From NCBI RefSeq assembly GCF_947387555.1, contig NZ_CANDNZ010000001.1:496001-560000 (forward strand): a stretch of DNA of 64,000 bases, written 5' to 3'. This document shows, piece by piece, positions 2,565 to 16,326 of the stretch. The translations under genes and the position numbers were made by a program. The first letter of the stretch is position 1, and each line of letters opens with the position of its first letter. The stretch is from Thalassomonas sp. RHCl1. Its GTDB lineage: Bacteria > Pseudomonadota > Gammaproteobacteria > Enterobacterales > Alteromonadaceae. Below the pieces are notes generated by a model, which had not been told where the DNA came from, searched no databases, and saw only the letters and a program-made list of their open reading frames with translations.

Positions 2565-2989
2565 AGTCCGGTGATTGCTGTCAATTATCTGTTACCAGGT
2601 GTTGTTATATTCAAATTGGCGCTAATTAAACATGCTTGCTTAATTGTTGTGAGCATCATTTCTTTTTGACTGTGGCGGCAGCAGGAGCAGCACTCGTCTA
2701 AATCTACTGTCAGCTTTGTAAAAAAATTGTTTAATTAATGTGCCTGTTACGCTACTATGCGCCGTTGAAAATTGCTATGGGTTGATAACAGATTATTTTT
2801 CATCTGCTTAACAAGAAAAACTCTTAGTTCAAATCATTTATTGTAAATCGTTGTTTGTTAAATGAGCAAAACTGCTACTTAGTTTGATATAGATTTATTC
2901 ACTCCTGCATAAGGGGATAAATCGGCGTCTTTAACCCCTCGATTTGTTGTCAATCCATCACAATATTTTGTCTGTTTTAAAGGGAATCT
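2565..2989. other. AT-rich leader of the fibronectin/RHS operon
   Basis: A 425-bp gap without a gene. The last 90 bp hold two alternative short stems: AGGGG (about 2910) can pair with CCCCT (about 2935), and AAATCG (about 2919) with CGATTT (about 2939). A strong AAAGGGAA ribosome site precedes the ATG at 2990. This is the likely promoter of the accessory operon. Confidence 0.4.
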
Positions 2990-5029
2990 ATGAATTCTGG
3001 TTTTGCTTGCTTTATCAGGTTTGCTGTTAGTCTTTTACTTTTAAATAGCTTTGTTGCCCATGCCGCAGTGGGAACTCCCAGCATAAGTGCGCCAACCCGC
3101 AGTACAAGCGGCAGTTATAGCGTGAGCTGGAGTGCCGGCTCGGGCGATAAGCCAACACGTTATGAACTTATCGGTGAAGGGGTTTCCGGCACCCTTTATA
3201 GCGGTTCGGCAACTTATTCCCGTCGCGGTCCGTTAGCAGACGGCACTTATTATTATCGGGTGCGTGCCTGTAATGCTTCTGGTTGTAGTGGTTATTCTTC
3301 CGTAGATTCGACCCGGGTGATATTGCCTAAACCTCCCGGCACCCCTAGTATCAGCGCACCGACCAGCAGCAGTACCGGCAGTTACAGTGTTAGCTGGAGT
3401 GCCGGCTCTGGTGAAAAACCAACGAGTTATCAACTTATCGGTGAAGGTGTTTCCGGCACGCTTTATAGCGGCTCGTCCACCTACTCCCGCCGGGGACCTT
3501 TACCGGACGGCACTTATTATTACCGGGTGAAAGCATGTAATTCAGCGGGTTGTAGTGGTTATTCATCAGTAGATTCGACCCGGGTAACCCTGCCTAAACC
3601 TCCGGGAACCCCTACTATCAGTGCGCCTACCCTGAGTACGACCGGCAGTTATACCGTAAGCTGGCAGGCCGGAAGCGGCGCCACGCCGACACGTTATGAA
3701 GTGGCGGGAGAAAATATTTCCGGGCATTTTTATACCGGTACGGCAACTTCTTCAGCACGTGGCCCTTTGCCTATGGCAACTTATTATTATAAGGTCCGGG
3801 CCTGTAATGCTGCCGGTTGTAGCGGATATTCAGCCGTAGACTCTACCCGGGTTGCCTTTCCCAAGCCCGGAGTGCCGAGCATAGTGAACACTCCCGGCTC
3901 AACCAATAACGGCTACTTTACCCTTAACTGGCAAGCGGGCAGCGGTGAAACCCCAACCCGTTTTGAAGTGGCTGGCGAATATATCTCAGGTGATTTTTAT
4001 TCAGGTCCGGCAACATCTTCTTATCGCGGGCCATTGGCAGACGGCTCATATTATTACAAGGTCAGGGCTTGCAGTGCCGGTGGCTGTAGTGATTACTCGT
4101 CTCCCGTGCATCAGGTTGTTGTGAAAAATACTCCGAAAAAGCCTCAGCCGCCGCAGGCTGTGCTTAACGGTACCACGATTAACCTGAGCTGGCAGCAAGA
4201 GGCCCATGCCGATAATTATAAGGTGGAAGTGAAGTTTAATGATCGTGACTGGCAGGCTGCGGATATCGGCGACTCTGCCACTTTGTTGTCCCATGCATTT
4301 ACCGATATGAATCCGGGGACCCGGTTATTTCGGATTGTTGCCTGCAACGGGACTTTATGTTCAACCCCTTCGAGCGAATCAAACCGGATCAAGATATTTG
4401 AAATTCCCGGCATCCCCAGCATAGCGGATACCCCGACTATCACTCATGACGGATATTTCACCCTTAACTGGCAACCGGGCACGGGAGGCGATGCTGCTAC
4501 CCGTTATGAAGTGGCCGGGGAGTATATCTCTGGCAATTTCTATTCAGGTTTAGAGACGTCTTCTCGCCGGGGACCGTTAGCCGACGGTAGTTATTATTAT
4601 AAAGTCAGAGCCTGTAATGAAGGGGGTTGTAGCGAGTACTCATCTCCCGTTACTCAGGTAAAGGTATTGCATTCCCCCGGCGTGCCTGCAGCGCCGCTTG
4701 CTGAACTCGATGGCAGTAATCTTCGGCTTAGCTGGCAGCAGGTTGACCATGCCGATAACTATAAAGTGGAAGTGAAGTTTAATGATCGTGACTGGCAGTT
4801 GGTAGAGATAGGCAGTTCGGCTGCGGATCTTTCAAACCCTACTATGTCGCACCTATTTACTGATGTTAACCCGGGAACGCGATTGTTTAGGGTAACTGCC
4901 TGTAACGGGGCTTTGTGTTCATTGCCATCCCCTGAGTCGAACCGCACAAAAATTGATGAGCAGGGCAATAATATCGAGAAAGTGGTGACGGAATTGCTCG
5001 GTACACCTGTTGTTTCGGGGGGGAATTGA
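2990..5029 (+). CDS. secreted protein of seven fibronectin-III-like domains
   Basis: A 679-aa protein with a signal peptide (cleavage after FVAHA, about residue 26) and then almost nothing but repeats of about 85-95 aa. Five are of one type: 'SYSVSWSAGSG...TRYE..GE..SG..YSG......RGPL.DG.YYY.VRACN..GCS.YSS'. Two (from about residues 385 and 575) are of a second type containing DNYKVEVKFNDRDW. The paired Cys in each CN..GCS loop suggest intradomain disulfides, which fits export. The repeats are near-identical in DNA, so recent duplication or recombination is likely. FnIII arrays usually act as adhesive spacers or carbohydrate/protein binding modules. It heads an operon with a Fic and an RHS gene and is joined to the next ORF by a TGATG overlap. 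Confidence 0.8.
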   Translation: MNSGFACFIRFAVSLLLLNSFVAHAAVGTPSISAPTRSTSGSYSVSWSAGSGDKPTRYELIGEGVSGTLYSGSATYSRRGPLADGTYYYRVRACNASGCSGYSSVDSTRVILPKPPGTPSISAPTSSSTGSYSVSWSAGSGEKPTSYQLIGEGVSGTLYSGSSTYSRRGPLPDGTYYYRVKACNSAGCSGYSSVDSTRVTLPKPPGTPTISAPTLSTTGSYTVSWQAGSGATPTRYEVAGENISGHFYTGTATSSARGPLPMATYYYKVRACNAAGCSGYSAVDSTRVAFPKPGVPSIVNTPGSTNNGYFTLNWQAGSGETPTRFEVAGEYISGDFYSGPATSSYRGPLADGSYYYKVRACSAGGCSDYSSPVHQVVVKNTPKKPQPPQAVLNGTTINLSWQQEAHADNYKVEVKFNDRDWQAADIGDSATLLSHAFTDMNPGTRLFRIVACNGTLCSTPSSESNRIKIFEIPGIPSIADTPTITHDGYFTLNWQPGTGGDAATRYEVAGEYISGNFYSGLETSSRRGPLADGSYYYKVRACNEGGCSEYSSPVTQVKVLHSPGVPAAPLAELDGSNLRLSWQQVDHADNYKVEVKFNDRDWQLVEIGSSAADLSNPTMSHLFTDVNPGTRLFRVTACNGALCSLPSPESNRTKIDEQGNNIEKVVTELLGTPVVSGGN

Positions 5030-5172
5030 TGCCTGTTCATTTTTACGAAGTTAATGGAAAGATAATTTTAGAGAAGCCGCTACAAAACTGGCGGCAAGAT
5101 AATAAAGAATTTACAGCTAAAGCGTCGCTGGTATATAGCGGCTTCGAGGACTTTTTCAAGTATGAAAAATAA
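5029..5172 (+). CDS. 47-aa coupled small ORF
   Basis: An ATG at 5029 overlaps the stop of the upstream gene (TGATG), with a GGGGGG run 6 nt before it as ribosome site. The frame stays open for 47 codons and its stop at 5170-5172 lies 8 nt inside the next gene, whose ATG is at 5162. So three frames are chained by overlaps. The product (starting MPVHFYEVNGK, ending YSGFEDFFKYEK) has no signal peptide or Cys and looks like a small soluble protein. I know no family. The double overlap is what supports it; it could alternatively be only a coupling leader. Confidence 0.5.
   Translation: MPVHFYEVNGKIILEKPLQNWRQDNKEFTAKASLVYSGFEDFFKYEK
5073..5145 (+). repeat. 10-bp perfect inverted repeat in the leader of the next gene
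   Basis: GAAGCCGCTA at 5073-5082 and its exact complement TAGCGGCTTC at 5136-5145 enclose 53 nt. The right arm ends just before the GAGGA ribosome site (5146-5150) of the 5162 gene, so pairing could affect translation of that gene. Confidence 0.45.
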
Positions 5173-6106
5173 AATTAAAAACACCTGGTTAAGTCCGGGG
5201 ATCGGATTGTTATTAGCTGTTACTGGTGCTCCAGTATTAGCTGCGGGTAAACTTATAACATTAGAGGTGAATAACGATGTTGCCACTTTTGCTATTGATG
5301 AACCCAAAAAACAGGCACCACTGGGGTGTGTAACAGGTGATGCCGCAGCATGGGCTGTTTCTACGACTGCTAAGGATGGAATATATCCATTATTATCCAT
5401 AGCGCAGCAAATGGAACAACCTATTGAAGTAACCCAAGGTAGTGAGTGCTTATCTGGCGTAGAAAAACCGGAAATGGTTAATATCCTTTATCAAGCGGCC
5501 GGAGAAAACAAGCCGGTGGTTTCTTCAGGGCTTAAGTTTATTGCTCGTAGCCAAGTGATAGTAGCAGAAGGCGTAATGGCATCGGTTAAGTTTAGTCTTA
5601 AAGATAGTTCTGGCGGAGTTATTGTTAAAGGTGCAAGTCAGTCAGAAGGGTATTATCTTGCTGATTTTGAACAATTAACTGTCGGAGATTATAGTCTGAC
5701 CACCATTGTTACCACGGGTGATAATGGTGAAGTGGCTGAAGATACCGTTGATTTTCATGTTATCGGCTATGCCGACCGGGCTTATCAGGATAGTGATGGC
5801 AATTTATATCTCCGTTTGCCTGAAAGTTATGGCAGTAAGTTACTGAAACTGAGTTTGGTAAACGGCTCTTGGGCAATTAGTGAAATTACTCAAGACGAAT
5901 GGAGTTTATTAGCACTGTCAATAAGTGCTTTTTCTTTCGAGACGGGTGAGTTTTCTATGGATGAATTTGATGATGTTCGTTTGCTCAACACCGCCACTTC
6001 AGATGAAACCTTAATTGAATACGGGGCAACTCTTGCTTTAGGAGATGCGGAAATTATCTATATTTATGATGACTTTGGCCGCTTAAAGCAAGTGATCACC
6101 AAATAG
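5162..6106 (+). CDS. secreted protein with a single C-terminal YD motif
   Basis: A 314-aa protein with a signal peptide (MKNKIKNTW, hydrophobic core, cleavage after VLA-AG). The body is beta-rich and acidic, with Ser/Thr/Val strands resembling bacterial Ig-like folds around residues 120-205. The last 15 residues, YIYDDFGRLKQVITK, match one YD (RHS) repeat, a motif otherwise found in the RHS protein encoded 1.2 kb downstream. That hints at docking on, or descent from, the RHS shell. No family recognised. It follows the 47-aa ORF by overlap and precedes the Fic gene by 89 bp. Confidence 0.65.
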   Translation: MKNKIKNTWLSPGIGLLLAVTGAPVLAAGKLITLEVNNDVATFAIDEPKKQAPLGCVTGDAAAWAVSTTAKDGIYPLLSIAQQMEQPIEVTQGSECLSGVEKPEMVNILYQAAGENKPVVSSGLKFIARSQVIVAEGVMASVKFSLKDSSGGVIVKGASQSEGYYLADFEQLTVGDYSLTTIVTTGDNGEVAEDTVDFHVIGYADRAYQDSDGNLYLRLPESYGSKLLKLSLVNGSWAISEITQDEWSLLALSISAFSFETGEFSMDEFDDVRLLNTATSDETLIEYGATLALGDAEIIYIYDDFGRLKQVITK

Positions 6107-6195
6107 TAAAAATAAACCGGGGATAACCGCTTGCTCTACTGGCTGAGATCCCTATAAGTAATTTTTATTGTCTCGTTTGCATAGGCTAACCAACT

Positions 6196-7266
6196 ATGAG
6201 TCAAAAACTAGAAACTGACACTAATAAAGATATACCTGACAGGCAATCGCTTATTTGCCTGTCAGAGCCTTTTGTTATTCCCTGGTTAAAACCGCAACAA
6301 CAGGGTATCCAGCTTAATGCATTCAGTTTACAGCATTTTCTTTACCGCTATCTTTGTGGTGGTGAGTCTATGCGTTCATTTAGGAAGCTCTCTCGTAAAC
6401 AACTGGCGTTAGTGACTTCTGGAGCTAATTACTTTAATGCGGATGTGCTTAGCTTAAATAAGGAAATAACTCAATTTAGTAAAGCAGTTGATATTTTTTC
6501 AAAGAATTCCTTTTCTATTGAGACTCTGAAGCAAGCCCATTCTTGCTTTTCTGTTAAGAATGCCGGTTGTTTTAGAACAACAGCTGGCTGGATAGGAAAA
6601 AGTGCTGATGAATCTGATTATATGCTTCCGGTACAGCCGGATGAAATGGTCAAATATCTTGATAACTTAGCTCAGTGTTTGCAATTAGAGCATATTGAAA
6701 GTTATCAAAAAGCCGTGATTGCTTATGTGCAGCTATTAAAGATACACCCCTTTGCCGATGTTAACGGCAGGACTGCTCGGGCGTTAATGTTCAGCTTACT
6801 TAAACGTGATGCTATTCCGCCGGTGTTTTTTAGATATTTAAGCTCAAGAGACTGCTATCTCCATAGCGCCAATACGCTAGGCCTGAATGACTTGTCACAG
6901 CCTGAACATAGCTTTTGGCAGCAGGCTTACCTGTTGGGGGGGGCAATAGAAGAAGAAGTTTGCTCATTAGTGGAAAAAGTACAAAGTTCTTTGGTATCAG
7001 CCACAGCTTTGACCGGTATTAATGCCGATAGCCAGGCACTGCTTAACTACTTGTGGCAACAACCTCTTGTTACCGAAAAAGTCATCTCAGCAAAATTAAA
7101 TATGACAACTGCCTCGGCCACCAGTGCCATCAAACAATTAATCAATTGCCGGGTATTAATCCCAAGACAAATCAGCAGCATCAGTACAGAAGTTGTTTTT
7201 GAATGTCATGCCGTGATGAAACTCTATCAGGCGATTGAAAGTAAATTATTTAAGGTAAAAAAATAA
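6196..7266 (+). CDS. Fic-domain protein with C-terminal winged-helix region
   Basis: A 356-aa cytosolic protein. Fic enzymes transfer AMP or another phosphate-containing group from a nucleotide to a target hydroxyl. The motif is H184-PFADVN-G191-R192-TAR, so the catalytic His, the metal-binding Asp188 and the Arg are present, but the usual Gly/Ala after the acidic residue is Val189. I could not find the usual [ST]xxxE[GN] inhibitory helix in the N-terminal region. Residues about 275-345 look like a winged-helix domain (LSAKLNMTTASATSAIKQL). It ends 1 nt before the ATG of the RHS gene, so the two are co-translated; it may modify the RHS product, its target, or the operon. Confidence 0.8.
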   Translation: MSQKLETDTNKDIPDRQSLICLSEPFVIPWLKPQQQGIQLNAFSLQHFLYRYLCGGESMRSFRKLSRKQLALVTSGANYFNADVLSLNKEITQFSKAVDIFSKNSFSIETLKQAHSCFSVKNAGCFRTTAGWIGKSADESDYMLPVQPDEMVKYLDNLAQCLQLEHIESYQKAVIAYVQLLKIHPFADVNGRTARALMFSLLKRDAIPPVFFRYLSSRDCYLHSANTLGLNDLSQPEHSFWQQAYLLGGAIEEEVCSLVEKVQSSLVSATALTGINADSQALLNYLWQQPLVTEKVISAKLNMTTASATSAIKQLINCRVLIPRQISSISTEVVFECHAVMKLYQAIESKLFKVKK

Positions 7267-7267
7267 A

Positions 7268-10200
7268 ATGAAGTTTAGTAAATTAAAAACCGCATTGTTT
7301 TGCGGCTTAATGACAGGGCAGGTGACTTACCAGCCGGTAGATGAACCGTTTCTTGATGATGAAGAAACGTCTGCTGTATCAGCTGGTTGGGGCTGGGGGA
7401 TCGTTACTGTTTCTGCTAATTCCTTTACCTGTCCTGAAGGTGCTGATGAAAGTGCTTGCCATGCCGCAGAAGAGAGGTGGATTGCGACACAAAGGGCAGA
7501 AGAAGAAAATAGCACTGAGCTCATTACAGTTGTAGGACAGAGAATAAATGGCCCTGATTTTTCTGAATATAATGAATTCACTCGGTCAGCATTAGGGGTA
7601 CTTCTTGCTAGTTTGTCTTATGATCTATACGGTGAACCTGAAGAAAGTGACAACCATGAAAGTGATCAAAAATTATGTGGCAACCCAGTTGATTATCGCA
7701 CTGGGTTAAAGGTTGAAACATTTACCGATTATATGGCTGCCGGGTTTAACCCTTTGGGAGTAAAAAGAACTTATAGCACTGAAAATTCAAGATGGCACAC
7801 CGAGCCACAATTCGTATTCGGAAAAGATTGGAAGTCGTCATATGATTTAGCGATGAAAGTCTCCTCTCATAGTACCACGCTTGGGCAGCCTGCAATTTTC
7901 CTTTATAGAAGCGATGCAGATGATATTACGCTTGTATCTGGCGATGGAGTTAATTATTACGATACCAGGGATGATTTGAGAGAAACCGTCTTAGTTGTCC
8001 AGGGTAATAAATATATATATGAAAATGCTATAGGTAATAGAGAAACTTATTTGGAAGATGGGCGGTTAATTCAGCTCGAATATAAAGATGGCACCACCCA
8101 TACTTACCATTATCCAGATGATTCCCGACAGTTTGATAAAGTATCCCATAGCTCAGGTCGTTATCTTAGTTTTTATTGGGCTGAGGGACGTGTTTCACGG
8201 GTGCTTGATCAAGCTTTAAATGAATATAGCTATAGTTATAATGAAGATGGTCGGTTAAGTAAGGTAACTTATCCTGATGGCGATAGTGTAAGTTATCATT
8301 ACACTGTTTCAGAACCTAATGGTATTACTAATATTGTTTTATCTGGAGTTAGTTATAACGACAAGCAATATTCCTGGTTTGAATATAATCACCCTAACTA
8401 TGCAAAATATGTCACCAGCTCAAAGCATGCAAATGATATTGATAAGTATACTTTTGAATATGTAAGGTGGAATTCAGACCGGAGAATAATCCAAACGACT
8501 ATCACGAATCCTTTAGGTCATAAATCCGTACATGATTTTGATGAAGAATATGGCGGGGAAGAGTTAGTCACGAACCTGGCAAGTGCTAACTGCCCTGCGA
8601 TGACAACGACAAAAACCTTTGATCGTTATGGTTATATTAAGAAGGAAGTAGATGTTAATGGTAATATCACCCTTTTTGATTACGATAATGAAGGGACTTT
8701 AAACGGAAAAACAATTGCATCTGGTACCCCGGAAGAGTATACACTCACTTATGAATGGGATGCCGACTCAGGTCAAATCCTTAAAGAAACTGGCCCAAAT
8801 ACGGTTAAAACCTATCAGTATAACGATCGAAATATGACAACCCTCATGACCTTGGCGTCAAATGGTAATGATGGGCAGCCGATTAAAACGATCACTCAGC
8901 TGAAATATGATTATGAATTTCATGATAATGGGTTGCCTAAAAAAATAACCACTACTAATGCTAAAGGTGAAATCACCCTAAGAAACTATAACTCTTTTGG
9001 TGATTTAACCTCGCAAACCGACGGTTACGGCGGCACGGTTACTTTTGAAAATTATGATGCCCATGGCCGGGTTGGAAAGGTTACTACGGTAGAAGGTCTG
9101 GTGAAAACGTATACTTATACGTTAAGAGGCCAAGTTGCATCTATGAAGGAGCATGCTGTTGATGCTGGTATTACCCGTTCTTTTAGCTATGAATATAATG
9201 TTAAGGGACAAATAACCAAAGAAACTATGCCTGATGGTAGTTATACCACCTATACCTATGACGATGCTTATCGCCTAATCAAAAAAAGCCAGAGTAATGG
9301 CTATGGGGCCAGCTACACTTTAGATAACATGGGTAATATCTTGTCTGAAAGCTTGATAGAACCGATGACACAAGCTGAAATCGAGGCTGTTGCCGATAGC
9401 GGAGAAGCTGCTACGACAAAAGTGGTGTTAACCACTACCAATACTTATGATGAATTAGGTCGTAAATTAACGGCAGCTGTTGATAATATTAAATACGGCT
9501 ATAGCTATGATAACTTAGGCAATATTGTCAAGCAGACTACGCCAACAGGTGAGTATTCATATACTTATGATGCTTTAAGTAGGCCTCTAGAAACGACTGA
9601 TGCAGTAAATTCTGAGATGACTAAAGTTTATAACGCTTTTGGTTTGTCTAGTGTTACAGGCAGTAGCAATCAGGTAACTGACTTTTCGCTTGATGCTTTT
9701 GGTAATAAGTTATCTGAAAACAGTCCGGATAGAGGTCTTACCGAATATACCTATGATATGGATACGTTAAGTATCAGTACTGAAACCACTGCAAATGGTG
9801 CAGTCATTACTTATACCGATAGTTTATCGGCAAACACGTTAATCAGAACAAAGCAGGTAGGCAATAGAAAGCAAGAAATACACACCTCTGCGCAAGGTTT
9901 GATTAAATATTTTAGTGATGATAGCGGTGAAACGAATATTAGTTATAACTCATTGCTAATGCCGACACGACAGGTGAGTAAGATTTTATCGGAAGGCACA
10001 GAAACAAGTTATACCACTCACTGGGAATATGATTCTTTTGGCCGCATAAAAGGGCTTACTTACAGTGACGGTAGTTCATTAAGTTATAGTTACGATGCTC
10101 ATGGTCAACCTAGTGCTATTACCGCAACTATTAATGCTGTGGAAATACCTGTTCTTAGCGAGTTGAGTGTAAATGTTTGGGGTGCAGTTAATAGTTTCAA

Positions 10201-11560
10201 GTATGGCAATGGCATTAACCGTACTCTGACATATAACAGTAATGGTCTGGTGCACACCATTGACTCAACTGGGGTGCAAAGTTTAACTTACACAGATACT
10301 TATGACCTTGGGCAAATCAATAAAATCACAAATAATATTGATGGCAGGATATCAACAAGCAATATGTCATATATCAATGGGCGACTAGGCTTTTATCAAA
10401 ACGGCTCAGAAAGCAAACAAATTAGTCATGATGGTTCTGGTAACCGGAAAACGTTAAAAACGATATCGAGCGAGAACCTTCCCGAAATTACTTACAATTA
10501 TGAAACTGGCAGTAACCGTTTAATCAGTGAAGTGAGTAGTGGTGAGACCTTAACTTATAGTTATGATAATGCAGGTAATGTGGTTAAACGTGCTAGTACA
10601 AATAATCAGTCAGCGGCAAAAATGATAAAATATAATGCAAGCTATGAATATAATGCCATAGGGCAGCGGGTGATTAAGCGCGTAGGCAATGAAGATAGCA
10701 TGACAGAAACGCATTTTATTTATGATCTTCAAGGTAAGTTATTATCAGAAGGGCATAATAAACATTACATTTATAATGGTAATGATATCGTTGCTTTAAT
10801 CCAGGATGGACAGTTGTATTATGTTCATAATGACCATCTTGGCCGGCCGGAAGTAATTACTGATAGTAATAAAGAAATAGTATGGTTGGCAGATCTGGCA
10901 CCTTTTGATAGCAGGGTAGTACACAGTCAGATTGGAGAGTTTAATATTGGTTTCCCGGGGCAGTATTATGATAGTGAAAAGGATTCTTGGTATAACATGT
11001 TTCGGGATTATGATGCTAAGACGGGAAGGTATCTACAGTCGGATCCTTTGGGGTTGGGAGGTGGAATAAATACTTATGCCTATGTGGGGGGGAATCCTGT
11101 AAATGCATATGACCCGTTTGGCTTGGAAATTCAGTTTGCTATTGGTGTAGGGTACGGCAGTCACTATGCTCTCGCTGGTGTTGAACAAACATTCACGATA
11201 GGTGTTTCACTCGATTGGAATCCAGGTAACTGGCAGGTCTTTGCGCAGCAGACAAATGCTGCAGGTATTGGTCCTGGGTTTTATATTGGAGCTGATTTCA
11301 TTGGTGCTGGTAGCGTTAGTGATGGTCCTTTAACTCCCGGTTATTCAAATGATACTATGGCAACGTTTGCGCTTGATGGTGGAGAGGTACTGGCATGCGG
11401 GGTGGCAGTTGATTTTGACACAAATGGAGTTGGCGGTCTGGGAGGAATGGTAAAAGGTGGCCCGGGAGTCGGTGCTCGAGCGCTTTTTGGAGTTAGGCAA
11501 ATTAATACATGGGCATCTCCGACTTTCAAAGATTACTTACGAGAGGTTATTTTTAACTAA
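7268..11560 (+). CDS. RHS-repeat protein with RHS core and orphan C-terminal tip
   Basis: A 1430-aa polymorphic-toxin-type protein. After a short hydrophobic N-terminus comes a DUF6531-like opening (CGNPVDYRTGLKVETFTDY, residues about 137-155), then dozens of YD repeats (YDxxGRL...) to about residue 1170. The RHS-associated core follows (YYVHNDHLGRPEVITD; FPGQYYDSEKDSWYNMFRDYDAKTGRYLQSDP) and ends with the PxxxxDPxGL signature PVNAYDPFGL at residues 1277-1286. The remaining 144 residues are Gly-rich and beta-like; they carry no toxin fold that I know. RHS shells normally encapsulate the tip and release it after cleavage near this motif. The N-terminus lacks PAAR or other T6SS adaptors, so the export route is unclear. 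Confidence 0.9.
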   Translation: MKFSKLKTALFCGLMTGQVTYQPVDEPFLDDEETSAVSAGWGWGIVTVSANSFTCPEGADESACHAAEERWIATQRAEEENSTELITVVGQRINGPDFSEYNEFTRSALGVLLASLSYDLYGEPEESDNHESDQKLCGNPVDYRTGLKVETFTDYMAAGFNPLGVKRTYSTENSRWHTEPQFVFGKDWKSSYDLAMKVSSHSTTLGQPAIFLYRSDADDITLVSGDGVNYYDTRDDLRETVLVVQGNKYIYENAIGNRETYLEDGRLIQLEYKDGTTHTYHYPDDSRQFDKVSHSSGRYLSFYWAEGRVSRVLDQALNEYSYSYNEDGRLSKVTYPDGDSVSYHYTVSEPNGITNIVLSGVSYNDKQYSWFEYNHPNYAKYVTSSKHANDIDKYTFEYVRWNSDRRIIQTTITNPLGHKSVHDFDEEYGGEELVTNLASANCPAMTTTKTFDRYGYIKKEVDVNGNITLFDYDNEGTLNGKTIASGTPEEYTLTYEWDADSGQILKETGPNTVKTYQYNDRNMTTLMTLASNGNDGQPIKTITQLKYDYEFHDNGLPKKITTTNAKGEITLRNYNSFGDLTSQTDGYGGTVTFENYDAHGRVGKVTTVEGLVKTYTYTLRGQVASMKEHAVDAGITRSFSYEYNVKGQITKETMPDGSYTTYTYDDAYRLIKKSQSNGYGASYTLDNMGNILSESLIEPMTQAEIEAVADSGEAATTKVVLTTTNTYDELGRKLTAAVDNIKYGYSYDNLGNIVKQTTPTGEYSYTYDALSRPLETTDAVNSEMTKVYNAFGLSSVTGSSNQVTDFSLDAFGNKLSENSPDRGLTEYTYDMDTLSISTETTANGAVITYTDSLSANTLIRTKQVGNRKQEIHTSAQGLIKYFSDDSGETNISYNSLLMPTRQVSKILSEGTETSYTTHWEYDSFGRIKGLTYSDGSSLSYSYDAHGQPSAITATINAVEIPVLSELSVNVWGAVNSFKYGNGINRTLTYNSNGLVHTIDSTGVQSLTYTDTYDLGQINKITNNIDGRISTSNMSYINGRLGFYQNGSESKQISHDGSGNRKTLKTISSENLPEITYNYETGSNRLISEVSSGETLTYSYDNAGNVVKRASTNNQSAAKMIKYNASYEYNAIGQRVIKRVGNEDSMTETHFIYDLQGKLLSEGHNKHYIYNGNDIVALIQDGQLYYVHNDHLGRPEVITDSNKEIVWLADLAPFDSRVVHSQIGEFNIGFPGQYYDSEKDSWYNMFRDYDAKTGRYLQSDPLGLGGGINTYAYVGGNPVNAYDPFGLEIQFAIGVGYGSHYALAGVEQTFTIGVSLDWNPGNWQVFAQQTNAAGIGPGFYIGADFIGAGSVSDGPLTPGYSNDTMATFALDGGEVLACGVAVDFDTNGVGGLGGMVKGGPGVGARALFGVRQINTWASPTFKDYLREVIFN

Positions 11561-11589
11561 CTTTTTATATATTTGATAGGAATAGAGTT

Positions 11590-11916
11590 TTGAGTAATTT
11601 TTTTAATATTAAATTTATTTTATATATTACAGGGCTTGTTTGTTATTTTTTTACTTATTATAACTACATCAATGAAATGGGAGCTTATACATATACTTTA
11701 ATTGTTTTTTTCTTATCATTGCCTGTTATGTATTCAGGTCTTATTAAAGCAGAAATGAAGGTTGATGGTATTTGGGTTTTAAAAAAAGTAGGAGTTTTTT
11801 TGTTTGCTTTTTTAATTGTATTTAGTAAGCAAAGAGAAGACATTATTAGGGCAATATTAGATTCAATTTTAATTGCATTTTTCTTTTTGGCTTTTTTGAA
11901 ATTAAAAAAAATATAG
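11590..11916 (+). CDS. small multi-pass membrane protein, candidate RHS immunity protein
   Basis: A 108-aa protein with three to four hydrophobic helices (residues about 8-25, 33-52, 66-82, 88-104) and a Lys-rich end. I use the TTG at 11590 because an AGGA lies 8 nt upstream; no ATG is available near the start. It begins 30 bp after the RHS stop and its DNA is extremely AT-rich compared with the rest of the window. Position and size match an immunity gene for a membrane-acting tip. No sequence family is recognised, so the role is inference from context. Confidence 0.5.
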   Translation: MSNFFNIKFILYITGLVCYFFTYYNYINEMGAYTYTLIVFFLSLPVMYSGLIKAEMKVDGIWVLKKVGVFLFAFLIVFSKQREDIIRAILDSILIAFFFLAFLKLKKI

Positions 11917-11980
11917 GTAAAAGTAATAGTTAAAACAAAACAAAAAGGGACCCCTCTAAATTGGATTAACTGAAAATCGC

Positions 11981-12032
11981 GGTCTAGGCTTTAATTTAAG
12001 AGTTTATTTACTCGGAGGTTAAAGGCTAGACC
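11981..12032. repeat. inverted repeat in front of the RAYT pseudogene
   Basis: GGTCTAGGCTTTAA (11981-11994) and TTAAAGGCTAGACC (12019-12032) are complementary at 13 of 14 positions and enclose 24 nt containing the GGAGG ribosome site. REP-type hairpins commonly flank RAYT genes, which suggests this is a REP-like element. Confidence 0.5.
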
Positions 12033-13103
12033 CGTGCCCGTAAACATCAAGTTTGTTTAGAAGAAACGCCTTACTATCACTGCATTTGCCGCTGTGTTCG
12101 TAGGGCGTTTTTGTGTGGGGAGGATAACAGTACCGGGCAGAATTTTGACCATCGAAAGCAATGGTTGGTAGATAAAATAACCCAGTTGGCCTCAGTCTTT
12201 GCTATTGATATTTGCGCCTACGCCATCATGGGTAATCACTATTATTTGGTGCTCAGGGTAAATAAACACCAAGCTCAGCAGTGGGATAGTCGAGAAGTGG
12301 CGTTACGCTGGATGCAGCTGTTTAAAGGGCACCCGCTGGTAGACCGATATTTGTCAGATGTTAAAACTACTCAGGCGGAAAAAGATAAGGCGCTTGAGCT
12401 GATTGAAAAATGGCGTAATCGTTTATTTGAACTGGGCTGGTTTATGCGTTGTTTAAATGAACATGTCGCGGTGCAGGCGAATAAGGAAGATAACTGCAAA
12501 GGCCGCTTCTATTCGTTACCATCCCTGGAACTCCCCCTTCGGGCCAGCTAAAGCTGTTCTAATTTTTTCCTGAAAAATTAGTGGGAAGGATGTTTTAAGT
12601 CCCAGGCTCTGCTTGATGATACCGCTTTGCTGGCCTGTATGGCCTATGTTGATTTGAATCCTGTACGGGCGGCGATAGCACAGACCCCGGAGGAGTCGGA
12701 TTTCACCAGTATTCAGCAGCGGATAAAAGCGCTGGCTGGTGCAAAAAAAGCTCAACAGTTACAGCCCGCTAAAATATTACCCTTTACCGGTTATAAACCC
12801 CATGGCAAACCGGGTTCGGGTTTGCCATTTAAATTATTCGATTATTTAAATCTGGTGGAATATACCGGGCGCTGTGTCAGAGAAGATAAACGCGGTTTTA
12901 TCCCGCCAGATATCAAGCCCTTATTTACCCGTTTAAACATTAATGAACAAGACTGGCTGGACGTCGTTAAAGATTTTAACCGCCACTTCATTAGCGCCGC
13001 CGGTAGCCCTGAAAAACTAAGCCGGTGGGCGGAGAAAACCGGTAGAAAATGGTGCGCTACCCATCAATCGCTACATCTCTATAGCAACCTTTATACTGAA
13101 TAG
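12033..13103 (+). pseudogene. decayed REP-associated tyrosine transposase (RAYT, Y1/IS200-like)
   Basis: In one frame the sequence reads a full RAYT: RARKHQVCLEETPYYHCICRC, RRAFLCG, QWLVDKI, CAYAIMGNHYYLVL, the NCKGRF-WEG-FKSQALLDD block, and AYVDLNPVRAA. RAYTs nick and join single-stranded REP hairpins. Three lesions are visible. First, no start is in frame: a TAG lies at 12027 and the GTG after the GGAGG site (12034) is out of frame by one. Second, the HUH metal motif HYH is HYY. Third, 72 bp are inserted between NCKGRF and WEG (12510-12581), bringing an in-frame TAA at 12549. The parts remain readable as frames at 12111-12551 and 12627-13103. Confidence 0.8.
12510..12581. repeat. 72-bp palindrome-rich insertion inside the RAYT gene
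   Basis: The RAYT block NCKGRF/WEGCFKSQ is interrupted by exactly 72 bp (24 codons). The insert holds a perfect 9-bp stem, CTAATTTTT-TCCTG-AAAAATTAG, preceded by CTGG...CCAG and AGCTAAAGCT palindromes. I see no target duplication. Its size and hairpin content resemble a REP/BIME-type or miniature element. Confidence 0.55.
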
Positions 13104-13164
13104 CTATATAGGCTGATAACGCATCCAGTGTTGTTGATTTATCCAGCATTTTAGTCTATGAATT

Positions 13165-13292
13165 AACAGGTGATCTCTTACCAAAGGAGGTACTTAAAAG
13201 CCGTTATGAATTGAAAATCAGGCGCTATCCCCGAGTGCTGGAACACCCGGAGACAGCTAACCAAAACGAACTTATACAGGAGTCCGTCATGG
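13165..13292 (+). promoter_or_regulatory. conserved leader of the SymE-like gene, copy 1
   Basis: From AACAGGTGA to the ATGG of the toxin gene this leader aligns along its whole length with 58728-58856, including GGAGGT...TTAAA, GCGCT.CCCC.AGTGC and an exact GAGACAGCTAACCA. Conservation of an untranslated region at two distant loci suggests an RNA-level control element; SymE of E. coli is controlled by the antisense RNA SymR. Confidence 0.5.
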
Positions 13293-13573
13293 CTGAATAT
13301 AATCATACGCCAGAGCATTGTTTTGCAAAAGTAAAATATCCTGCCTATCGGCAGCTTACCGTACTGGAAACCACCTGCGAGTCGTCATTGAAAACCCGCG
13401 GTATAGGCATTAATTATGTGCCGGTTAACCTTGAGCCTTGCATTGTGCTCAGGGGAAAATGGCTGGGACAAGCCGGGTTTGCTATTGGGCAAAAGGTGAG
13501 TGTCGTGATTAATCAGGATGAAATTACCCTCTGTCCTCAACAGGCTGATATCGGCCGGTCACGCGAGAAATAA
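13289..13573 (+). CDS. SymE-like toxin
   Basis: A 94-aa protein. Residues about 25-90 read RQLTV...YVPVNLEPCIVLRGKWLGQAGFAIGQKVSVVINQDEITL, which matches the SymE (PF08845) AbrB-like fold with the hallmark L+GKWL-x-AGF-x-G signature. SymE of E. coli is an SOS-induced type I toxin, recently linked to nucleoid condensation, and is repressed by an antisense RNA. I start at the ATG at 13289, with AGGA 7 nt upstream, rather than the TTG 26 codons earlier. Directly downstream of the RAYT pseudogene, in an accessory region. No antitoxin protein is adjacent, as expected for this class. Confidence 0.7.
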   Translation: MAEYNHTPEHCFAKVKYPAYRQLTVLETTCESSLKTRGIGINYVPVNLEPCIVLRGKWLGQAGFAIGQKVSVVINQDEITLCPQQADIGRSREK

Positions 13574-13595
13574 CCTAACGTAAGGCATCAGAGCC

Positions 13596-13629
13596 AAGCC
13601 ACTGCAGTTGAGCTAAGTCGTAGTGGCTT
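13596..13629 (+). terminator. terminator of the SymE-like gene
   Basis: AAGCCACT (13596-13603) and AGTGGCTT (13622-13629) form an 8-bp perfect stem followed by TCTTTG, 22 bp after the toxin stop. The T-tract is weak. Confidence 0.5.
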
Positions 13630-13746
13630 TCTTTGCGGGGTTGAGTTCAGAAGGAATAGTTCTTCTGCTGAACCTGGGCAGATAAACGTGGCTTTGCTAA
13701 GCCTGTTTCCCTTACTGAAAGTAGCGGATTAAGCAAGGGTTATGAC

Positions 13747-13781
13747 AACCGCTATCTTAGCGCTACGTATAGATAGCGGTT
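13747..13781 (-). terminator. long hairpin after the HNH nuclease gene
   Basis: AACCGCTATCT (13747-13757) pairs perfectly with AGATAGCGGTT (13771-13781). It sits 28 bp past the minus-strand nuclease stop. There is no T-run, so it may be a processing or attenuating hairpin instead of a terminator. Confidence 0.4.
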
Positions 13782-13808
13782 GCGCTTCACTTTAATACCT
13801 GAATCGTC

Positions 13809-14153
13809 TTATTTCTTCAGCATAGATTTTAAATCGGCAAAAGGATTAAACGTTGCCGCTTCGTGGTTATTTTCTCCTGCGACCACTTCGGTTTTGTACT
13901 GGGCATGATCGGTATATTTGGCGTGTTCGTTGTCGTGACAATAAATACACAATAATTCCCAGTTACTGCCATCGTTGGGGTTATTGGTATGATCATGGTC
14001 GATATGGTGAACGGTTAACTCTTTGAGGTTGGAATATACGAATTCACGGGCACAACGGCCGCAAACCCAAGGGTACAATTTAAGTGCCCTGTCCCGGTAT
14101 CCCTGCTCTTTGCGTTTGTAATCCGGGCTGGTGCCAAACTTATCTGATGACAT
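13809..14153 (-). CDS. yajD: YajD-family HNH nuclease
   Basis: A 114-aa protein, the same size as E. coli YajD (115 aa). It opens MSSDKFGTSPDYKRKEQGYRDRALKLYPW and carries two Cys pairs (VCGRC and LCIYC) around the HNH core (VHHIDHDHTNNPNDGSNWELLCIYCHDNEH), so a structural zinc and a catalytic His-Asn-His metal site are likely. A DNA nicking or cleaving role follows from the family; the cellular role of YajD is unknown. It is monocistronic with ATG at 14153. Confidence 0.85.
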   Translation of the reverse strand: MSSDKFGTSPDYKRKEQGYRDRALKLYPWVCGRCAREFVYSNLKELTVHHIDHDHTNNPNDGSNWELLCIYCHDNEHAKYTDHAQYKTEVVAGENNHEAATFNPFADLKSMLKK

Positions 14154-14252
14154 GGTAGTTGCTTATGCTATGGTTGATTGCCCCATTGTAGAGGCAAGTG
14201 TATTTGATGGCAAATACTTGCCCCGGCCTCTGCTTTTATTGGCTTTCCTTTG

Positions 14253-14423
14253 CTAGCCTTTACCGGGATCTGTCCTGGTAAATTCTTCTATACACTCGCC
14301 GGCACTTGATTGCTGGTATTGCTCCAGTAATTGGTTAAACTCCTTCATTTCTTCTATGCTGGCATCTTGCTGATAAATCCTTTCTGACAACAGTTTGATC
14401 CGGCTAATCTCATCAGAAACCAT
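14253..14423 (-). CDS. 56-aa hypothetical protein
   Basis: An open frame of 57 codons on the minus strand, ATG at 14423 and TAG at 14253-14255. The product (MVSDEISRIKLLSERIYQQD... ending TRTDPGKG) is strongly amphipathic and predicted helical with Glu/Gln-rich coiled-coil character and one Cys. The codon pattern looks coding, with a G/C-rich third position like its neighbours. The ribosome site is weak (TTGGGT). It is 100 bp upstream of yajD on the same strand and may share its transcript. No family recognised. Confidence 0.45.
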   Translation of the reverse strand: MVSDEISRIKLLSERIYQQDASIEEMKEFNQLLEQYQQSSAGECIEEFTRTDPGKG

Positions 14424-14640
14424 AATAAATACCCAAGTTATTATTTTGATATAACTGAGTTAAGTATTGTGGAATATTTTCATAAGGCCAAAAGTTATGT
14501 GATTTTCCCGGCCTTTATCAACGCTATTTTTATTTTATATGAATCTAAGGCATGATAATGGGGTATAGTGCTGCTCTATAACAGCTGCCGGGTGCAGTTA
14601 GCCGTTGAACTTACCCGATGAGGTTAATCGTGGGAAATTT

Positions 14641-15399
14641 ATGAAAAGTTGTCTTATCTTCCCTGTAAAATCAGGCGTATTCCTGTTGTTGTTCTGCTTT
14701 TTTTCTTTACACGCACAAAATTTGCGTTTCGTCGCCGAAGAATTGCCGCCGTTTCATTTTACCAATGAGCATAACCGGCCTGATGGTGCTCTGGTTGAAC
14801 TTACCCGGGCACTGTTATCTCAGGCTGGCTTGAAAGGGGATATTGAGCTGGTGCCGTTTGCCCGCGCCTATAAGGTCACTAAAAATACAGAGAATACCTT
14901 TTTACTGTCCTTGCTGAAAACCCCGGTCAGGGAGGAAAGCTTCAAATGGGTAGGGCAAAGTTATAAAACCCGGGCTTTTCTGGTAGGACTGAAAAGCCGT
15001 GGGGATATTAAGCTCAATACCCTTGATAATGCCAAAGCCTATAATGTCGGCACCATACGGGGCTATTATTCAGAAACTTTTCTTAAACAGGCGGGGTTTA
15101 AGGAAAAGCAAAACCTGTCATTAAGTGTCAAATACGAGCATATGTGGCAGATGTTGTTTAAGGGGCGTATTGATTTGGTACTGACCAACTTTATTGCCCT
15201 GGAGCAGGAAATTGCCAGTATAGGTTTAAATGCCGGGGATATCGGTCAATATATCCAGGTAAAGGACTTCCCCGATGAACTCTATTTTGCCACCGGGCTG
15301 AAAACCCGGAATGAACTGGTGGAGCAGTTAAGGGCGGCGCTAATAACCCTTAAAAGTAATGGCCGCTACCAGAAAATCCTGGAGAAATGGCAATTGTAA
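14641..15399 (+). CDS. periplasmic SBP_bac_3-like binding protein
   Basis: A 252-aa protein with a signal peptide (MKSCLIFPVKSG, L/F-rich core, cleavage after LHA) and family 3 solute-binding features: LRFVAEELPPFHFTNEHNRPDGALVELTRALL at the start, FARAYK, the KTPVREESFKWVG segment, and a YNVGTIRGYYSE second lobe. I start at the ATG at 14641, with GGGA 7 nt upstream; the TTG 12 codons earlier has none. No transporter genes are adjacent, so ligand and partner are unknown. Followed by a terminator. Confidence 0.75.
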   Translation: MKSCLIFPVKSGVFLLLFCFFSLHAQNLRFVAEELPPFHFTNEHNRPDGALVELTRALLSQAGLKGDIELVPFARAYKVTKNTENTFLLSLLKTPVREESFKWVGQSYKTRAFLVGLKSRGDIKLNTLDNAKAYNVGTIRGYYSETFLKQAGFKEKQNLSLSVKYEHMWQMLFKGRIDLVLTNFIALEQEIASIGLNAGDIGQYIQVKDFPDELYFATGLKTRNELVEQLRAALITLKSNGRYQKILEKWQL

Positions 15400-15407
15400 G
15401 CCGTAAG

Positions 15408-15452
15408 ACTCCGGCTGCCCTGAATTGTTATCAGTCGCTCACCGGAGTTTTT
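15408..15452 (+). terminator. terminator after the SBP gene
   Basis: ACTCCGG (15408-15414) pairs with CCGGAGT (15442-15448), followed by TTTT. It also faces the stop of the convergent PEP-CTERM gene at 15478. Confidence 0.55.
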
Positions 15453-15477
15453 ATCTTAGTGTATTGTTAAACCGGGG

Positions 15478-16326
15478 TTAGCTTAAGCTGTTTTTTCTGT
15501 GGCCAAAAGAGAGCAGGCTAAGTGCTAGCCCCAGCATGCCCAAACTTGTCGGTTCAGGCACATCAACCGGGGTGCTGGCGGCAGAGGCGGCAACCAATTT
15601 GCTATCATCTTCAAAGTTTAAGCTCAGGGTATTCCAGGCGTCGGCATAGCCGTTTCTGGACTTGGCTTTCATTGAGGCTACCACAAAGAAGTTTTCTCCC
15701 GGTTGCAGATCAAAGCTCAGGCTGTCGAGGTTGTTAACATCGATGCCGCTGTTGATATATAAAGTGGTTTTGTCTTTTTCCATATCAGAGGCCAGCTCAT
15801 AATACAGGGTGGCTATATCTGTGCTCCACTCCAGCGAGTCACCGATGAAAATTGCAACATCAGCTCTTAGGCTGTTATTGCTGTAACCGTCGTTGTTATT
15901 GCTCCCGACCGAGCCGTGTAAATTTATATCCAGATCTATAGTGGTGGCTTCGGTGCCTGTGTAGGTATAGCGCTGCATGGCAAAGGCTTCTGCGTTGCCG
16001 CCTTTTTGCTCATCGGAAGAGGCCTGAACTTTGAGTGCCGGCAGGTACGAACTGCCGTCAAGTGCGGCATAGGCCTGGGAGTAGCCATAACTGATTTCGC
16101 TGGCATAAGCGCTGTCATTTGATAGTCCGCCATCATGGGTATTAATAATATCGCCGCCGTTGGCTGTGGTGCAAGCGCTGGAGCAGTTACTGGCGGTGTA
16201 GCCGCCGGCGTAGGCGCCGTAATCAGTTATCAGGCTGGCCTGGGCGGTAAATGAGATAGCACCGGATAAGATTAGGATTGCAGAGGCTTTTTTGATAAAA
16301 GGTAATGATTTGATTTGATTGGTCAT
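15478..16326 (-). CDS. PEP-CTERM sorted secreted protein
   Basis: A 282-aa protein with a signal peptide (cleavage after TAQA, about residue 30) and a canonical PEP-CTERM tail: VPEPTSLGMLGLALSLLSFGHRKNSLS, i.e. the PEP triad, a transmembrane helix and a basic end. Exosortase cleaves such tails and attaches the protein to the envelope or matrix; no exosortase gene is in the window. The mature domain has a CSSACTT pair near residue 50 and beta-rich repeats with YSNNS-type turns; no enzyme motif. An FNR-type box lies about 100 bp upstream of its start. Confidence 0.8.
   Translation of the reverse strand: MTNQIKSLPFIKKASAILILSGAISFTAQASLITDYGAYAGGYTASNCSSACTTANGGDIINTHDGGLSNDSAYASEISYGYSQAYAALDGSSYLPALKVQASSDEQKGGNAEAFAMQRYTYTGTEATTIDLDINLHGSVGSNNNDGYSNNSLRADVAIFIGDSLEWSTDIATLYYELASDMEKDKTTLYINSGIDVNNLDSLSFDLQPGENFFVVASMKAKSRNGYADAWNTLSLNFEDDSKLVAASAASTPVDVPEPTSLGMLGLALSLLSFGHRKNSLS

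Follow-up and report, generated by a model that had tools for sequence, protein, structure and literature searches.

What brings a fibronectin type III (FnIII) array, a protein with a single YD motif, a Fic protein and an RHS protein together in a row of genes on one strand? The question is raised by a 64,000-nucleotide stretch of the genome of Thalassomonas sp. RHCl1 (G000:C1:496001-560000 within 7.56 Mb; hereafter the window), which a preliminary description made from the letters alone had taken for a polymorphic-toxin system. We agree in part: with a probability of roughly 0.6, the genes form a secreted polymorphic RHS toxin cassette seated at a chromosomal toxin hot spot, with Fic as the cognate partner of the leader that opens the RHS protein. 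The toxin reading follows from the replacement of the RHS tip and of FnIII in a second copy of the cassette, from the linkage of that copy's tip with the next open reading frame (ORF) in another genome, and from the other toxin cassettes found at the same site. Searches could cover three further congeneric genomes, 147 genomes from the family with RHCl1 itself among them, and a set of 394 from the order. The features on which the argument draws are the following.

2608..11938, strand not given: whole inserted cassette, about 9.33 kb; the congener G061 is colinear on both sides without it
2990..5029, + strand: FnIII array protein, 679 aa, with a signal-peptide-like start, a variable body and the conserved C-terminal tail TELLGTPV
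5029..5172, + strand: 47-aa ORF, probably not a gene; begins with the ATG of TGATG at 5029
5162..6106, + strand: YD protein, 314 aa, with a signal-peptide-like start (by eye), an N-terminal domain (ydN), an Ig-like middle, a C-terminal domain (ydC) and the terminal tail IIYIYDDFGRLKQVITK
6196..7266, + strand: Fic-domain protein with a C-terminal winged-helix-like region; no signal peptide seen
7268..7543, + strand: leader of the RHS protein (residues 1-92), also present on non-RHS proteins near the Fic family, with the TonB-box-like ITVVGQR at its end
7679..11125, + strand: RHS cocoon and core, from DUF6531 to DPFGL (Pfam, NCBIfam)
11126..11560, + strand: variable tip, candidate toxin, 144 aa (residues 1287-1430), differing from the tip of the second copy; no family
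11590..11916, + strand: 108-aa membrane-protein ORF with a TTG start, candidate immunity gene by position and by analogy with the 93-aa ORF of the second copy
12111..13103, + strand: remnant of a REP-associated tyrosine transposase, a right-edge site marker and not a weapon part; uninterrupted in G061

All the ORFs reported earlier are present at their coordinates, the TGATG junction between the FnIII gene and the 47-codon ORF is real, the latter overlaps the YD start by 11 nt, and a single nucleotide does separate the Fic stop from the RHS start. Of the chained operon proposed in the preliminary description, the overlaps and the 1-nt gap hold, while the link between YD and Fic is a loose one, since 89 nt lie between them. 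The 47-codon ORF had been counted as a part of the chain. It is not conserved in the spacer of the second copy and has no homologue among the loci fetched, so that a spacer sequence left open by chance is the probable explanation; as a component of the system or an antitoxin of Fic it was rejected on these grounds and because no [ST]xxxE[GN] motif was seen in it by eye.

The second full cassette (L014) lies on the same contig about 366 kb away, with its genes in homologous order (locus coordinates).

7103-8968: FnIII-like protein
9078-10028: YD protein
10115-11191: Fic protein
11193-15488: RHS protein
15489-15770: 93-aa ORF

Its gap between Fic and RHS is the identical 1 nt, and 86 nt separate YD from Fic. 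In codon comparisons with the window, YD was 71% identical in amino acids (nonsynonymous divergence, dN, 0.177; synonymous divergence, dS, 1.29), Fic 74% (dN 0.160, dS 0.884) and residues 1-1286 of RHS 73% (dN 0.189, dS 1.09), which gives dN/dS of 0.14-0.18 for the three genes. The recurrence of YD-Fic-RHS with matching gaps, together with these ratios, indicates that the gene layout is more than chance. The ends behave differently: FnIII is only 29% identical overall, with its C-terminal tail kept, and identity along RHS climbs from 47-57% over the first 286 codons to 92% ahead of the tip, behind which the two tips are 24% identical over 76 aligned codons. At the level of sequence, this comparison shows a constant middle (YD, Fic and the RHS backbone) with replaceable ends (the FnIII body at one side, the RHS tip and the short membrane ORF at the other). 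Moreover, the tip and the 93-aa ORF of the second copy co-occur in another genome (G138; 54.5% and 62.6%), on an RHS backbone 31% identical to that of the window.

The window RHS protein (7268-11560, 1430 aa) matched Pfam RHS_repeat (E 1e-39), DUF6531 and RHS, as well as NCBIfam Rhs_assc_core (E 2.5e-19), and its relatives in the PDB are Tse5, Rhs proteins of the type VI secretion system and TcdB2-TccC3. In this protein (P0005) Pfam detected no PAAR and neither SpvB nor an integrin-like propeller, the latter two being present in a relative from the congener G095; none of the six proteins of the cassette that were scanned matched VgrG. The tip, called unrecognised in the preliminary description, indeed matched no family; it is Gly-rich, and AlphaFold run without an alignment gave it a mean predicted local distance difference test (pLDDT) score of 34. 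Two matches to it among the 394 order genomes (E 4.5e-4 and 7.1e-4), to frames that look oxidoreductase-like and decarboxylase-like by eye, were judged spurious. The 108-aa ORF has 22.6% G+C and, by a simple hydropathy count, three hydrophobic segments. Elsewhere (L110 and L114, G017:C20), C-terminal pieces of RHS stand in a row; they share about 62-68% identity with the end of the window core and have different ends, like dissociated-tip arrays.

The insertion site tells a similar story in related genomes. G061 matches the window colinearly as far as 2607 and resumes at 11939, the cassette being missing; this empty site is directly followed by an uninterrupted REP-associated transposase frame (330 aa). 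Behind the same left-hand genes, G095 carries a 2510-aa protein made of a YD module, SpvB, FG-GAP, RHS repeats and an Ntox43 tip, followed by a 150-aa ORF and then by transposase pieces; the window genes beyond the transposase were not met within the 15 kb fetched. In G013 both flanks are present, and between them lies an 83-aa frame, an orphan CdiA-like tip, which shares 47% identity with the very C-terminal end of a protein resembling CdiA on a Cronobacter plasmid (annotated 'hemagglutinin repeat-containing'); the next ORF is related to the one behind that Cronobacter protein (22%, E 3e-9), and neither of the two has a Pfam match. Across four congeners, the same site holds nothing, an orphan tip, or one of two different cassettes. 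That the site is a chromosomal toxin hot spot is the best explanation.

The transposase remnant at the right edge and the copy directly behind the second cassette would also suit a decaying island, a non-functional remnant of recombination around such copies. So would the resemblance of YD to the truncated N-terminal part of a larger RHS protein, as well as a third and more distant copy in the genome (L020), whose Fic is decayed (HRFSDGNGHVFR) and whose RHS is 37% identical. We consider this very unlikely, since the FnIII, YD, Fic and RHS frames are open in both full copies, the last three with dN/dS of 0.14-0.18, and since the C-terminal tails are preserved between FnIII proteins that are otherwise so diverged.

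The FnIII protein matched Pfam fn3 (E 2.4e-20) with six stretches at a setting of E<=1, and seven repeats can be counted by eye. It ends in TELLGTPVVSGGN and its counterpart in the second copy in TELLGTPVIDGSN, a tail that four FnIII proteins elsewhere in the genome do not have; the tail motif, chosen after the tails had been viewed, occurred in 20/24 cases against 23/174 other ORFs of at least 300 aa. The YD protein bears its single YD motif at its very end, in a tail that resembles an RHS strand; the Ig-like middle was assigned by eye and from a low-confidence model, AlphaFold without an alignment giving a mean pLDDT of 41. Together with the 47-aa and 108-aa ORFs, it matched no family at the curated cut-offs of Pfam and NCBIfam. 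YD homologues occur in 13 of the 147 family genomes (own included), and YD forms the N-terminal module of the 2510-aa protein of G095; none was found in plasmids or viral contigs, and a scan of genome contigs with four YD sequences confirmed no relative.

Profiles were made of ydN (about 85 aa) and ydC (about 73 aa) and compared with the ORFs of 52 loci, one set of 28 and another of 24 RHS loci (L092-L115, mostly with 1.5-kb flanks). Matches to 53 ORFs and 20 proteins resulted, spread over 25 loci of the first set and none of the second; ydN itself had no consistent match in Pfam, NCBIfam or the PDB. A match to the window RHS was present in 11 of the 25 loci, as a neighbouring gene (L014, L021, L074, L080, L084, L090), nearby (L086), or fused in one chain with both domains (L072, L073) or with ydC (L076, L083), and the order FnIII-YD-RHS recurs in L014, L080, L084 and L090. 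The preliminary description had staked the partnership of FnIII and YD with RHS on their meeting elsewhere; they do co-occur in other genera, as neighbours or as fusions. In these loci, FnIII and YD proteins frequently terminate with a stretch like the start of Pfam RHS (PF03527), e.g. IHTDLLGTPVAETD, and for L084 Pfam reports this stretch itself, below cut-off (E 0.0017, profile 1-22). In L079, L084, L090 and L091, the C-termini stop inside an RHS-core-like IHTDxLGTPVAETDxNG, near the same point in most. Small secreted-looking ydN proteins, often in tandem, stand beside FnIII-array proteins in L015, L016, L017, L018, L079 and L085-L089, mostly without RHS.

RHS-like cages also occur in adhesion proteins (teneurins), and many clusters hold FnIII arrays and ydN proteins without any RHS. 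Combined with the Gly-rich tip without a family match, this would fit an adhesin or surface-structure locus that is no weapon at all, with FnIII, YD and RHS as a scaffold on the cell surface and the variable tip as its binding end. We hold such a locus to be quite unlikely in view of the joint swapping of tip and ORF, the recurrence of the L014 pair in G138, and the tips of Ntox43 and CdiA type that occupy this site in other genomes.

The place of Fic in the cassette is a separate matter. The protein matched Pfam Fic (E 8.4e-13) and the SoFic model of PADLOC (E 1.5e-24), is related by sequence to solved Fic structures (best E 1.7e-11), and gave weak helix-turn-helix (HTH) matches under the cut-off. 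Compared with the AMP-transferase motif HPFx[D/E]GN[G/K]R given in PMC2686095, its motif HPFADVNGRTAR retains His, Phe, Asp, Asn and Arg, with Gly replaced by Val. Matches to it were found in 8 of the 147 family genomes (E 1e-30) and 3 of the 394 order genomes (E 1e-25), own included in both, and a single one on a plasmid, that of Salinimonas iocasae (L144); a scan of genome contigs with the Fic pair confirmed no relative. Class II self-inhibited Fic proteins carry [ST]xxxE[GN] ahead of the Fic core; this motif is not in the window Fic (P0004) or that of the second copy (P0008), and a control Fic of G061 (L156) has it as SSAIEN. An inverted repeat of 11-12 pairs with an 8-nt loop lies just inside the fic start (6235-6266).

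Fic had been described as a partner of RHS; in the other genomes seen, the same family lies near non-RHS proteins that bear the RHS N-terminal leader. The leader spans about 60-90 aa at the N-terminus of RHS and consists of a hydrophobic segment followed by roughly YYEDxxxFxxVS...SGWGWG, with no consistent match in Pfam, NCBIfam or the PDB; a DUF1459 match of one leader among 12 (2e-4) was judged a composition effect. In G095, a 236-aa protein next to Fic matches residues 8-92 of the window RHS at its N-terminus (E 6e-7, small query set), and larger regions around ten Fic genes contained leaders in 8. Altogether, over 55 partly overlapping loci (941,820 bases), the leader was present in 13 of the 15 with the window's Fic family, 10 of these 13 having no RHS, and in 0 of the 40 lacking that family. 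Eight leader genes lie on the same strand 1-115 bp from Fic, one is divergent at 97 bp (hence 9/13 within 115 bp), and four are on the opposite strand at 1.8-4.3 kb. The gene on the S. iocasae plasmid, which starts with a leader 67 bp upstream of Fic (E 3.3e-9), is the only held-out case, because the profile had been built with the remaining 12 of the 13 leaders; these had initially been detected in BLAST searches whose queries were the leaders of the window RHS (L146, L147), of its paralogues in L014 and L020, and of a protein in L071. The G061 locus with SSAIEN had no leader across 20 kb.

What follows the leader as cargo can be an RHS cage, a protein of 731-747 aa that has an FnIII-like stretch, or a small protein; linkers rich in Gly or Pro occur in several of them. 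At the level of sequence, the leader accompanies this Fic family in the loci seen whether or not RHS is present, and Fic appears to belong with the leader rather than with RHS, a combination that other genera, several in number, share. Some leaders continue with I-x-V-x-G and a Gly/Pro linker (the motif follows the leader in the window, L014, L020 and L146), which we take to resemble a TonB box. As a lead and not a test, a regular expression for it matched 3/3 leader-RHS proteins, 1/26 other RHS proteins and 4/169 other ORFs. In the window, LITVVGQR stands at 7520-7543 (RHS residues 85-92), and like strings occur in 49628-52363 and 55884-58481, which look TonB-dependent-receptor-like by eye. 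AMPylation of a leader tyrosine was rejected as a general rule since the window and L014 have PF at that place, the other ten leaders having YY, FY, YL or YF. Among the neighbourhoods, a leader gene and Fic flank asparagine-synthase-like and class-V aminotransferase genes in RHCl1 itself (L019 3746-9810); spacing in G061 and G013 (L148, L149) is similar, with the genes between not annotated. In G057 (L154 308-2641), Fic is followed by the type II secretion gene gspC (Pfam T2SSC E 4.6e-42).

Fic could instead be an independent passenger, or a second toxin or defence module, landed by chance between YD and RHS. Toxins with Fic/Doc domains are known from polymorphic systems and from toxin-antitoxin systems (PMC3482391), the protein fits the SoFic model, and the YD-RHS loci of other genomes have no Fic. 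A passenger is nevertheless unlikely, considering that Fic, YD and RHS diverged comparably between the cassettes (dS 0.88, 1.29 and 1.09, dN/dS 0.14-0.18) and that this Fic family is paired with the leader in 13/15 loci. More tentatively, and with the odds rather against it, Fic and leader may constitute an undescribed two-part module, in which a cytosolic Fic-fold enzyme dedicated to leader-bearing exports marks the leader, or licenses it, so that it can be exported or taken up; RHS would then be one captured cargo, to which the cassette adds exchangeable FnIII arms.

Several observations weigh against the toxin cassette with a leader-cognate Fic. Neither an accepted relative of the tip (394 order genomes and the plasmid collection) nor a relative of the 108-aa ORF (fetched loci) was found, so their roles as toxin and immunity protein are proposed from position and analogy. 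FnIII and YD do not serve toxins exclusively, and the majority of RHS proteins lack them, as 14 of the 25 ydN/ydC loci had no detected RHS match (one, L077, carries SpvB) and YD-type domains were absent from all 24 short RHS loci within flanks of mostly 1.5 kb. Fic was seen adjacent to RHS in RHCl1 only, in three copies, and no RHS gene stood beside a matching Fic outside this genome in the DNA seen; likewise, an RHS N-terminus (1-169) with the leader was confined to these three copies among the 394 order genomes. In the third copy, the motif residues of Fic are lost while the RHS frame is still open, hence Fic may be dispensable, and its activity is uncertain given that the motif glycine is Val or Leu in the window and L014. 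As for the pairing, the loci were gathered via Fic and not by a genome-wide leader search, the four distant leader genes are on the other strand, and two loci (L150, L154) show Fic without a leader in view, the contig of L154 beginning 307 bp before the Fic frame.

For the preferred reading, a secreted RHS toxin cassette, we infer activity, export route, docking and Fic chemistry as follows. FnIII, YD and RHS would be exported via their signal-peptide-like N-termini. The RHS cage would enclose the 144-aa tip and cleave itself at the DPxGL junction; the released tip would act on competitors, and the 108-aa membrane protein (11590-11916) would protect the producer. FnIII may serve as an exchangeable target-binding arm that sets the target and YD as a detached base of the RHS cage, both perhaps docking through their RHS-strand-like C-terminal tails. 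Cytosolic Fic would be no second toxin and, as the cognate partner of the leader, would bind, license, modify or regulate the leader-tagged export product.

As a toxin cassette, this is a variant of the secreted Rhs polymorphic toxins with C-terminal displacement, as portrayed in PMC2935791 and PMC3482391, with which it shares RHS repeats, the Rhs-associated core, the DPxGL junction, differing tips behind a near-identical core and a short ORF after the tip. Unlike these toxins, the window RHS is without PAAR, has putatively exported FnIII and YD partners, and comes with Fic and the leader. The G095 product, with its YD module, SpvB, FG-GAP, RHS and Ntox43, is like the TcdB/TcaC-type secreted toxins (SpvB, beta-propeller and RHS) in PMC3482391, whereas the window RHS has no SpvB or propeller match and its YD module is a separate gene. 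With the Shewanella SoFic type (PMC2686095), the Fic protein shares the domain with its flap and a C-terminal winged HTH-like region; it differs in the replaced motif glycine, the missing [ST]xxxE[GN] and the genetic pairing with a leader-bearing protein. Rhs proteins of conjugative plasmids such as pAQU1 have a backbone about 28% identical over most of its length, but no Fic, FnIII or YD gene is annotated adjacent in the 2 of 914 records looked at. Fic/Doc as a polymorphic-toxin domain is already known (PMC3482391), and RhsA is among the domains shown with fido domains in the Figure 3 legend of PMC2686095. A literature search, judged by titles and abstract openings, returned no description of the cassette arrangement or of the Fic-leader pair.

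To our knowledge, many bacterial Fic proteins have no established substrate. A Fic family with a short exported leader as its genetic partner offers a directly testable substrate or ligand, and the pairing would tie the chemistry of Fic to the export of proteins or the delivery of toxins. The cassette itself would be a toxin system whose putative binding arm and warhead both vary while the middle stays constant; where it is inserted, related species have either different toxins or no toxin.

Among minor observations, a scan for internal promoters of the cassette gave 24 against 24.2 expected; terminator-like sites, not used as evidence, numbered 14 against 7.8 expected (standard deviation 2.6). 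The transposase copy of the second cassette matched NCBIfam REP_Tyr_transpos at E 5.7e-10, under the curated cut-off. The window and L014 cassettes are each immediately followed by a transposase copy, another is located about 5.6 kb upstream of Fic in the third copy, and L016 contains one too; at the blastn cut-off, ten further loci of the genome had none, though L135 has a distant one by protein. In the window, about 71 nt at 12511-12581 split the transposase frame; they are shared with G013 and absent from G061, G095 and L014, and may stem from a REP-like element that struck the gene of its own transposase.

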